Part shown: positions 1 to 4,554 of the stretch, piece after piece | How positions within the stretch are numbered: position 1 is the first letter of the stretch | How the letters are laid out: each line of letters starts with the position of its first letter | NCBI RefSeq assembly: GCF_016428855.1 | Contig: NZ_JAELTN010000001.1 | Location: forward strand, 1-64,000 | DNA from: Pedobacter sp. ASV28 | GTDB taxonomy: Bacteria > Bacteroidota > Bacteroidia > Sphingobacteriales > Sphingobacteriaceae | Length of the DNA stretch: 64,000 nt | Reading direction: 5' to 3' | The notes under the pieces: generated by a model | Told to the model about the DNA's origin: nothing | What the model saw: the letters and a program-made list of their open reading frames with translations, nothing else | The model's database searches: none | Made by a program: the position numbers and the translations under genes

Positions 1-120
1 TGGTCAGGTAAAACCACGAACAACAATTACCTTGAACATTTGCTGCCCATTATATTTTTCACGCAAATGCGTACCGTAATTATTATAGCCTTTTACGCCC
101 CAATCTAATGCAGTTCCCAT
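1..120 (-). pseudogene. 5' end of a TIGR01212/YhcC-like radical SAM gene, stopped by TGA at codon 39
   Basis: Reading leftwards from an ATG at 120 there are 38 codons ending in ...VVRGFT, then TGA at 6-4, then a proline codon. The string resembles the start of TIGR01212 (YhcC-like) radical SAM proteins: a tyrosine-rich lead-in (GYNNYGTHLREKYN), a short strand (QQMFKVIV), then GFT, which in the family is followed by CPNRDG. Here the cysteine codon, normally one of the cluster ligands, is replaced by TGA, and the following proline fits. A perfect -7 box (TATTTTTG, 127-134) lies 6 nt upstream of the ATG, so the 5' end looks like a genuine gene start. The rest lies outside the window. It may be a nonsense-mutated gene, a remnant or a sequencing error. 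The family match is from memory of the motif, so confidence is moderate. Confidence 0.45.
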
Positions 121-126
121 AGGTTG

Positions 127-134
127 CAAAAATA
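127..134 (-). promoter_or_regulatory. -7 box TATTTTTG for the left-edge gene
   Basis: Perfect match to the Bacteroidota -7 consensus TAnnTTTG on the minus strand, ending 6 nt before the ATG at 120. No clear -33 TTTG was seen at the usual spacing. Confidence 0.5.
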
Positions 135-232
135 CAGAAAATAGATTTAAGATTTTAGTCTCAAAACTTTCCGGATACTGTTTTACACTTTTAATTTATT
201 TGAAAAGCAGTGGCAATACTTATATTAAAGGT

Positions 233-297
233 AGCCCGCTAAACGCTTTACTGCGCTTTTGCAATCGCAACGCTACATGTTCGCTTATATCGGGTTT
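233..297. repeat. Dispersed intergenic repeat, copy A
   Basis: The segment starts AGCCCGCTAAACGCTTTACT and ends TTCGCTTATATCGGGTTTA. Both ends recur at 11194-11237 with few differences. Copy A carries about 20 extra central bases (GCGCTTTTGCAATCGCAACG). Both copies lie in gene-free gaps. No coding function is apparent. Confidence 0.55.
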
Positions 298-465
298 AGT
301 TGGCAAGTTCATTGCACAAGTCTAGGTTAACCAAGCCAAATGGCAGGGGATAGCGGTTCAACCACCTGTTTTTATGGCTTTTTGGCATGCTTTAACATTG
401 CAGAGGTATCATCCGGGTAAAGAAAAATGGGTTACCGCAGCCTAGCAACACTGCGTAGCTTTACA

Positions 466-500
466 AAAAAGACGACTGAGCGCCAAGCCAATCGTCTTTA
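466..500 (-). terminator. Terminator after the SteT-like permease gene
   Basis: On the minus strand an AAGACGA arm pairs with TCGTCTT across a roughly 17-nt loop and is followed by a run of T. It lies 25 bp beyond the stop of the permease gene. Confidence 0.65.
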
Positions 501-524
501 AACATTGAGGATACTATACCTACC

Positions 525-1964
525 TTATGCTGTTTTTTTTCTATTAATTAAAAAGTAAATAGGAACTCCAAGTAGAACAATCAAAAGCCCAGGCCAAGTA
601 TATTGCTGTTTATAAATGAGCAACAATATACAAAAAGCTGCCCCAATCAGTAAGTAAACAATAGGCGTAACTGGGTACAACCATGTTTTGTAAGGCCTTT
701 CTAAACCAGGTTTTTTAATCCTTAAATAGATCACGCCAAAAACAGTAATCATATAAAATAGTACAATAACAAAAGAGATCATATCTAAAAGGTTGCCATA
801 CTGGCCACTTAAACATAAAACAGACGCCCAAATCCCCTGCATCCAAAGTGATTTTTCCGGCACTCCATTTTTATTGTTTTGCAACGCGGCTTTAAAAAAC
901 ATACCGTCTTTTGCCATGGTTTGGAAAACCCTAGCACCTGCCAATACAATCCCATTCACACAACCAAAGGTAGAAACCATCACTAACACGGCCATTATAA
1001 TGGTACCAATGCCAGTACCAAAAATCTGTTCAGATGCTACAACCGCAACCCTATCATTAGGGGCAAAGGCAATGCCTTCTCTATTTAAGGTATTGAGATA
1101 TACAAAATTGACCAACAGGTAAAGGATCATTACGGCCGTAGTACCTAATACCATAGAACGCACCACATTTTTTTTAGGATTTTCGATTTCTCCAGAAACA
1201 AAAGTAACGTTCTCCCAAGCTACGCTAGAAAATACCGAACCTACCATTGCAGCTGCAATCCCTCCCATTATAGCCATACCAGAAATGGATTCCCAACCAG
1301 ATTTTAATAAATTACCGCTTGGATCTGTGTTGAGATTTTTGAAAGCTGCCCATCCAAAACTCATATTTTCAGCCCAAAAATTGCTTTTCACCAAGAGAAA
1401 ACCTAAAATAATTAAGCCAATTATAGCAACGATTTTAGATCCTGTAAAGATATTCTGCAATAGTTTACCACCTTCAACACCTTTTGTATTGATATAAGTT
1501 AGCATAAGAATAACACCAATAGCTAAAATCTGTATCCAGGTAATTTTATATCCCCCATTTTGAAAAATTGGAGCGGCGTCATTTAAAGCAGGTATTAAAT
1601 AGGCGGTAAATTTACCAAAGGCAACGGCAACAGCGGCAATAGTACCCGTTTGAATAACGGCAAACAGCCCCCAACCATAGAGAAACCCCATCATTTTACC
1701 AAAAACCTCCTTTAAATAAGTGTATTGTCCACCAGCTTTAGGAAACATGGAAGAAAGTTCTCCATAAGAAATTGCGGCAGCAACCGTCATTACCCCAGTA
1801 ATCACCCAAACCACAATCAACCAGTAGCCCGAACCCAGATTTCTCATAATATCGGCACTCACGATAAAAATACCGCTTCCGATCATTGAACCCATCACTA
1901 GCATTACCCCATCAAAAAGGCTTAATTTTCGCTTAGAAGAACCTTCTTCTTGTTGATTTTTCAT
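525..1964 (-). CDS. APC-superfamily amino acid permease (LAT/SteT-like)
   Basis: A 479-residue inner-membrane protein with about 12 hydrophobic segments. After a short charged N terminus it carries the APC signature in TM1 (VMGSMIGSGIFI, about residues 23-34), where the broken helix binds the substrate carboxylate and amino groups. FPKAGGQYTYLKEVFG follows TM2, and FSSVAWENVTFVSGEIENPKKN lies in the TM6-7 region typical of amino acid exchangers. Closest by pattern to the LAT/SteT group of antiporters and proton symporters, but the substrate cannot be read from the sequence. It is divergent from hppA across a 340-bp gap and ends in its own terminator, so it is probably monocistronic. It is not closely similar to the second permease at 4677. 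Confidence 0.88.
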   Translation of the reverse strand: MKNQQEEGSSKRKLSLFDGVMLVMGSMIGSGIFIVSADIMRNLGSGYWLIVVWVITGVMTVAAAISYGELSSMFPKAGGQYTYLKEVFGKMMGFLYGWGLFAVIQTGTIAAVAVAFGKFTAYLIPALNDAAPIFQNGGYKITWIQILAIGVILMLTYINTKGVEGGKLLQNIFTGSKIVAIIGLIILGFLLVKSNFWAENMSFGWAAFKNLNTDPSGNLLKSGWESISGMAIMGGIAAAMVGSVFSSVAWENVTFVSGEIENPKKNVVRSMVLGTTAVMILYLLVNFVYLNTLNREGIAFAPNDRVAVVASEQIFGTGIGTIIMAVLVMVSTFGCVNGIVLAGARVFQTMAKDGMFFKAALQNNKNGVPEKSLWMQGIWASVLCLSGQYGNLLDMISFVIVLFYMITVFGVIYLRIKKPGLERPYKTWLYPVTPIVYLLIGAAFCILLLIYKQQYTWPGLLIVLLGVPIYFLINRKKTA

Positions 1965-2304
1965 TTGTTTAGTTTAGTTTTTTTGGTTATTTTAAAAGCT
2001 AAGTTAAAAAAAGCAGGTTAATAATTACTTTGCCAACCAGTTTATTTATTAACGTCATAGATACACAATTTTCAATCTTTATCAGGAGTAAGATGATTTA
2101 AACCCTGCCTATTTGTTGCGAACACAAAACAAGATGGTATCTTAAAATTTAGCTGTACATGTGTAGTGAGATTTTAAAATTGGAATCACTTATACTATTG
2201 TTAAAAATTTGTGTCCAAACCGTAAAATATATTGACACTCAATAGTTTTTTTATTTACCTTGTATTTCGATTAATAACTAAACAACTAAATATAAATTTG
2301 AACT
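1965..2304. other. 340-bp divergent intergenic region between permease and hppA
   Basis: No reading frame of note. It should hold promoters for both divergent genes. A candidate hppA promoter is at 2232-2262. I could not pick out a convincing -7 box for the permease. Confidence 0.5.
2232..2262 (+). promoter_or_regulatory. Candidate promoter of hppA
   Basis: TTG at 2232-2234 and TACCTTG at 2256-2262 are 21 nt apart, matching the Bacteroidota TTTG/TAnnTTTG layout with one base missing from the -7 element. The ATG lies 42 nt downstream. Confidence 0.4.
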
Positions 2305-4554
2305 ATGGAGTTTTTACAAAACAACTTAATTTATGCGATCCCTCTACTTGGCTTAGTGGGCATTTTGGTTATGGCGATAAAAAGCGCCTGGGTTAACAAG
2401 CAAGATGCCGGCGATGCGAACATGAAAGAATTGGCCGGCTACATTGCCGATGGTGCGATGGCTTTTTTAAGGGCCGAATGGAAAATCCTTGGTATTTTCG
2501 CCATTTTGGCGGCCGCCTTATTGGCCTACTCCGGTACAATAACCGAAATTAATGGCAAAGCGATCCACTCTAGCTGGATCATTTCTATTGCCTTCATTAT
2601 TGGCGCCGTATTTTCTGCCACCGCAGGATATATAGGCATGAAAGCAGCAACAAAGGCGAATGTAAGAACCACACAGGCCGCCAGAACCAGCTTAAAACAG
2701 GCACTTAAAGTGAGTTTTACCGGTGGTACTGTAATGGGACTGGGCGTAGCAGGACTTGCCGTGTTGGGATTGGGAGGCTTGTTTATTATTTTTTTAAAGC
2801 ATTTTAATGTAATCAGTGCCAATAGCAATGAGATGAGAACAGCTATCGAAGTGCTTACTGGCTTCTCTTTGGGTGCAGAATCTATTGCGCTCTTTGCACG
2901 TGTTGGCGGCGGCATCTATACCAAAGCTGCTGATGTGGGGGCCGACCTGGTAGGTAAAGTAGAGGCCGGCATACCTGAAGACGATGTACGTAATCCTGCA
3001 ACAATTGCCGACAATGTGGGCGACAATGTGGGCGACGTTGCCGGAATGGGCGCAGACTTATTTGGCTCTTATGTGGCCACCATCTTAGCCACCATGGTAT
3101 TGGGTCAGGAAATCTCGGTAGTGGATAATTTCGGCGGCATGTCGCCTATCTTATTACCTATGGTCATTTGCGGACTAGGCATTATATTCTCCATTATAGG
3201 CACTTGGTTTGTCACCATAAAAGATGAAAAATCGAATGTTCAGCATGCTTTAAATTTGGGCAACTGGTCATCCATTATAATTACAGGTGTGGCATCTTTC
3301 TTTTTAGTGAAATGGATGCTGCCAGAAACATTGAACCTACGTGGCTACGAATTCTCTAACACCAATGTATTTTATGCCATTTTGGTAGGCTTGGTTGTGG
3401 GAACCATTATGAGTATCGTCACCGAATATTATACCGCCATGGGCAAGGGTCCAGTAAACTCGATTATCCAACAATCGTCTACTGGGCATGCCACCAATAT
3501 TATTGCAGGTCTTTCTGTGGGAATGAAGTCTACCGTAATCCCAATTCTGGTATTGGCTGGTGGAATTATGGCTTCATACCATTTCGCCGGATTGTATGGC
3601 GTAGCCATTGCCGCTGCAGGAATGATGGCCACCACAGCAATGCAATTGGCCATTGACGCGTTTGGACCTATTGCCGACAATGCAGGTGGTATTGCGGAAA
3701 TGAGCCAACTGCCACCAGAAGTACGTGAGCGTACCGATAATTTGGATGCCGTGGGCAATACCACCGCTGCAACTGGTAAAGGCTTTGCCATTGCCTCGGC
3801 TGCTTTAACCTCATTGGCATTATTTGCCGCATTTGTGGGCATTGCCGGTATTTCTGCCATCGATATCTATAAAGCCCCTGTACTGGCCGGTTTATTTGTA
3901 GGCGGTATGATTCCATTTGTATTTTCTGCACTGTGTATTCAGGCAGTAGGCAAGGCAGCTATGGACATGGTACAGGAAGTCCGTCGCCAATTCCGCGAAA
4001 TTCCTGGAATTATGGAATATAAGGCTAAACCCGAGTACGAAAAATGTGTAGCCATATCCACCCAAGCTTCTATTAGGGAAATGTTAATGCCCGGAGCCAT
4101 CGCTTTAATTACCCCTATTATAGTAGGCTTCTTATTTGGCCCAGAAGTATTGGGAGGATTACTGGCCGGAGTAACCGTTTCTGGTGTTTTAATGGGCATA
4201 TTCCAGTCCAATGCCGGTGGCGCTTGGGACAATGCCAAAAAATCTTTTGAAAAGGGTGTGGAAATAAATGGAGAGATGTACTACAAAAAATCAGAACCGC
4301 ACAAGGCATCTGTAACCGGAGACACCGTTGGAGATCCTTTCAAAGATACCTCTGGTCCATCTATGAACATCTTGATCAAATTAATGTCTATCGTTTCCCT
4401 GGTAATCGCCCCATACATTGCCATAAGTGCCCAAGATCAAAATCTTAGCCAGGAAATAAAGACAGAGTTGAAAATCATCAAAACAGTGGATTCTGCAGGA
4501 AAAGAGCTTACCGATACCTTGATAAACAAAACTGACACACTAATTAGACACTGA
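2305..4554 (+). CDS. hppA: Membrane-bound ion-translocating pyrophosphatase
   Basis: A 749-residue protein with about 16 membrane segments that hydrolyses PPi and pumps H+ and/or Na+. The PPi/Mg site is clear: [18 protein letters not shown] followed by the NVGDNVGD repeat (about residues 211-250), and a second acidic loop [16 protein letters not shown] near 450. The segment [13 protein letters not shown] has Ala where K+-independent enzymes have Lys (GNTTKA), which predicts a K+-dependent enzyme. After DLF comes Gly-Ser rather than Glu-Ser, so the ion specificity (H+, Na+ or both) cannot be assigned. The C-terminal tail after the last helix is hydrophilic and lacks a known domain. The gene stands alone with its own terminator. 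Confidence 0.95.

Follow-up and report, generated by a model that had tools for sequence, protein, structure and literature searches.

A radical SAM gene cut by a contig end

The stretch of Pedobacter sp. ASV28 DNA that we analysed (64,000 nucleotides; here called the window) starts at base 1 of contig C72, a contig of 198,580 bases in a draft genome of 160 contigs and 5.28 Mb. C72 holds no sequence to the left of window base 1, and the start of a gene on the minus strand is cut by this contig end. The gene belongs by likeness to TIGR01212, a family that NCBIfam names 'tRNA modification radical SAM protein MnmL/YtqA'. The features at the locus are as follows.

1..120, minus strand: first 40 codons of a TIGR01212 (MnmL/YtqA, YhcC-like) radical SAM gene, running into the contig end; the remainder lies on contig C152:3-785 (+)
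4..6, minus strand: TGA in place of Cys (TGC or TGT in 90/90 distinct relatives), with one more codon left before the contig end
1..42, minus strand: suspect end stretch, codons 27-40, with 5/13 invariant columns violated (Q27, M28, V34, R35, stop39)
127..134, minus strand: TATTTTTG, a TAnnTTTG (-7) promoter box that begins 14 nt before the ATG and is conserved in relatives
525..1964, minus strand: upstream neighbour, presumably an APC-type amino acid permease gene

Translation of the minus strand from window 120 to 1 gives MGTALDWGVKGYNNYGTHLREKYNGQQMFKVIVVRGFT*P, with TGA as codon 39 (window 6-4) and a proline codon at window 3-1. An earlier note on this DNA, made from the letters alone, had described a TIGR01212-like start from the ATG at 120 up to GFT, followed by TGA and Pro, and the translation confirms this description. 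The perfect -7 box that the note placed just before the ATG is likewise present at window 134-127. The note had also pointed out that the TGA takes the place of the first cluster Cys and that Arg is atypical before GFT; both remarks hold, as the corresponding codons specify Cys and Gly, respectively, in 90/90 distinct DNA stretches from relatives. A search of window 1-2400 against Rfam gave no match.

Comparison with related loci

The gene was compared with 109 related loci, made up of 29 from genus genomes (57 other genomes matched) and the best 80 of 415 contig matches, all of which were used. Because some loci are duplicates, the set amounts to 90 distinct DNA stretches and 89 distinct proteins. 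No gaps are needed to align the N-terminal 40 codons to the 109 loci, and VDGGFTCPNRDG is read in 109/109 of those examined. Every one of the 109 continues from the Pro of GFTCP with NRDGSKG(Y/F)GGCTYCNVDS, which places 14 residues between GFTCPNRDG and FTPE, and then with FTPE itself. Furthermore, the part of the gene on C152 is matched in 58/60 genus genomes (own included), and the matched part is without a stop. These alignments indicate that the gene is an ordinary and widely conserved one.

The promoter box is conserved together with the gene. TAnnTTTG lies within 50 nt upstream in 87/88 distinct upstream stretches of relatives, against 2.2 expected by shuffling. Among 89 distinct upstream stretches, 68 have an ATG start with TAnnTTTG beginning 12-15 nt upstream, 20 have a TTG start with the box 21-29 nt upstream, and the remaining one has an ATG without a box. 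By the -7 box rule, the ATG-start class is probably transcribed as leaderless mRNA. On the gene tree a single change suffices to explain the rows with TTG starts, and gain of a leader and the switch to TTG may have been one event.

The second part of the gene on contig C152

When the TIGR01212 profile was run over the genome, five matches were obtained, and the only one over the cut-off is located on C152. This match scores 229.3 bits (NCBIfam cut-off 180) and covers profile positions 63-301 of 302. The reading frame on C152 is open from base 3, where it begins FTPEP (FTPEPSRKNPDIKDQL...), and continues for 260 codons without a stop. It resumes in the expected family about 18 residues past the end of C72, and the spacing in the 109 related loci puts the gap between the two contigs at ~52 bases, if there was no indel. 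The two later cluster Cys of the motif GF(T/S)CPNRDG...CxxC fall inside this gap in the assembly, and the cluster-motif pattern TGNCCNAAYMGNGAYGG has 0 matches in the whole assembly. Searched on its own, the 38-residue N-terminal fragment matches nothing in NCBIfam at E<=1, perhaps because it is so short. Since the spacing from motif to FTPE is the same in 109/109 related loci, C72 and C152 carry two parts of a single gene, and ~52 bases between them are missing on the assumption of no indel.

The neighbouring genes point in the same direction. The next ORF on C152 lies downstream of the gene in 94/109 loci, at 79-96% identity. The permease-like ORF (window 525-1964) has a counterpart upstream and on the same strand in 54/109 loci, 39 of them at >=80% identity and 15 at <=55%; the flanks available from relatives were at most 1.5 kb and often contained just part of this ORF. 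Shared neighbours on both sides fit a single locus.

Two further observations concern the surrounding DNA. Window 189-248, upstream of the gene, has a copy of 77% identity in the same genome at C111:18954-19015, and the pair is possibly a short dispersed repeat. On C152, the region downstream of the gene (about 1130-1400 of locus L003) contains a long, strongly T-rich stretch.

Violations of invariant positions are confined to the contig end

In the 90 distinct DNA stretches, codons 27, 28, 34, 35 and 39 specify solely R, V, D, G and C, respectively; in the window they read Q, M, V, R and stop. The four violations besides the TGA all fall within window 16-42. Counted over the 89 distinct proteins, violations occur at 5/13 invariant columns in codons 27-40, at 0/11 in codons 1-26, and at 0/162 in the part on C152. 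This latter part does hold three residues unseen in relatives, all of them at variable columns. The probability of finding all five violations among those 13 columns out of 186 is 7e-7, a value that must be read knowing that the boundary at codon 27 was picked after the data had been seen; when the 40 codons are considered alone, the chance of five in the last 14 is 0.003.

The reading that the earlier note placed first was a nonsense-mutated gene with an intact promoter. If the mutation were real, the strain would have a (pseudo)gene with TGA in place of the first cluster Cys, and no active enzyme would be made. The TGA is indeed in frame in the assembled sequence, and the family search found no further TIGR01212 match over the cut-off, so that no intact second copy was seen to stand in for this gene. 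However, such a mutation would need to be accompanied by four more changed invariant codons within window 16-42, yet the invariant columns of the remainder of the gene are untouched and the gene has been kept across the genus. A decaying gene is not expected to gather its damage in the 42 bases that adjoin a contig end. With all five violations beside that end, we regard a genuine nonsense mutation as unlikely.

Quality of contig ends in the assembly

Adapter sequence and base errors are known artefacts of contig ends in short-read assemblies, and we surveyed ends of this assembly. The 160 contigs have 320 ends, of which 162 were collected (120 starts, 40 ends, and the starts of C72 and C152). 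After 24 with N within 250 bases were left out, 138 readable ends remained, some of them common to two contigs. The Nextera mosaic end, pointing outwards, was found in 67/138 ends with up to 2 errors allowed; in 64 of these 67 it is exact, starting 18-198 bases from the end. Poly-G, presumably also a sequencing artefact, was present in 43/138 ends. In contrast to these figures, 0/138 interior control segments had either Nextera adapter or poly-G.

When outgoing reading frames were translated, peptide tails encoded by the Nextera adapter appeared, and several of these tails ran on into Gly repeats derived from poly-G. In-frame stops near the ends numbered 8, 4, 4, 2 and 4 per 40 bases in a set of 48 outgoing frames, of which 26 were open at the end, a suggestive result that the adapter finding superseded. 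At adapter-bearing ends such as those of L205, L263, L213, L278 and L290, annotated proteins would have false tails such as SLIHISEPTRPA or VSYTHLTLPT.

A scan found neither adapter nor poly-G at the contig end where the window begins or at its mate on C152; at the window edge the best ungapped match to the adapter is 9/12 bases. The lack of adapter at the C72 end is a point in favour of a real nonsense mutation, and it sets this end apart from its siblings with Nextera and poly-G. Both the location of the TGA at a contig end and the restriction of the disagreement with relatives to that end match artefacts of this kind.

Two other adapter-free ends were considered. The C128 end encodes 169 residues of what we take to be a folate-synthase-like protein, matched in 56/60 genus genomes (own included), and in an analysis of 29 relatives' loci none of its 71 invariant columns was violated, including 5 in the last 14 codons. 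The clean C128 end shows that an end can lack adapter without being noisy. The C70 end encodes 249 residues with matches in 13/60 genus genomes (own included), mostly at 27-35% identity.

The many non-genomic contig ends also bear on a second source of the changes, namely that the last ~40 bases of C72 come from another template, either a co-sequenced strain or a chimeric read. A mixed end of this kind would account for scattered substitutions in a cluster as well as for the break in the assembly. It is at odds with the retention of frame and length and with a stretch that still matches the same gene, has no second match in the genome and resembles the adapter no better than stated above. We therefore consider a chimeric or mixed end very unlikely.

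Selenocysteine decoding

The TGA falls exactly at the cluster Cys position, where an exchange between selenocysteine and Cys is conceivable, and recoding of the UGA as selenocysteine or another residue was also weighed. In the genome, selA and selD had no match at E<=0.001. There were 8 matches to selB, 0 of them over the cut-off (best 182.5 vs 242.25 bits), and 6 to tRNA-Sec, again with 0 over the cut-off (best 43.4 vs 47 bits, with 150 of 248 first-look candidates scored). ARAGORN identified the six tRNA-Sec candidates as tRNA-Ser (4) and tRNA-Leu (2). Of the sequence beyond the TGA, where a SECIS-like element would be expected, C72 retains 3 bases, and the assembly lacks the stretch that follows them. 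The recoded stop that the earlier note had raised as its least favoured reading thus finds no support from selenocysteine genes, selB and tRNA-Sec included. Recoding is opposed as well by the uniform use of TGC or TGT in relatives and by the four neighbouring invariant residues that are changed too. We regard a recoded UGA at this position as extremely improbable, and it is barely conceivable that a genuine TGA is translated as selenocysteine, or passed by some other readthrough, at a position where this Pedobacter radical SAM enzyme of tRNA modification ligates its cluster.

Base errors at the contig end as the likely origin of the TGA

We observed a contig end, a split gene, violations clustered beside the break and dirty ends elsewhere in the assembly, and it is highly likely that the TGA arose from base errors at the end of a contig in an ordinary TIGR01212 gene. 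The course of events would be as follows. The draft assembly would have broken within the 4Fe-4S cluster motif of the gene, and the last ~42 bases of C72 would hold base errors, one of which turned the first cluster-Cys codon into TGA. The true gene very probably reads GFTCPNRDG...CTYC, as in relatives, and continues on C152. We infer from the alignments that all five changed codons go back to error rather than mutation, and the mnmL/ytqA-type gene is probably intact in the strain. Base error had been among the readings in the earlier note, and it is this reading that the five broken invariant positions beside the contig end, together with an open remainder on C152, support.

The gene resembles other members of TIGR01212 (MnmL/YtqA) in that its C152 part scores over the cut-off and its N-terminal 40 codons align without gaps, and it differs from them in that its start, as assembled, carries a stop codon and four further changes close to the contig end. 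The TGA is most likely a sequence-quality problem of no biological import, and its use lies in the caution that it teaches. Where a window edge is also a contig end, false residues, stop codons and peptide tails translated from adapter can appear, and reads are needed before nonsense mutation or recoding is claimed some tens of bases or less from such an end.

Additional observations on TIGR01212 genes in relatives

Two of the relatives drew attention for other features. Pedobacter panaciterrae O48 (NZ_LGEL01000011.1) has two TIGR01212 genes on one contig, ~76 kb apart and in opposite orientation, whose N-terminal protein stretches are identical; the pair is either a recent inverted duplication or an assembly artefact. 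On the gene tree, the TIGR01212 gene of 'Flavobacteriaceae bacterium PS02338' (JASCOD010000009.1) sits next to that of Pedobacter xixiisoli (bootstrap 95, SH-aLRT 9). This gene is placed well inside Pedobacter, and the name of the organism may be wrong.
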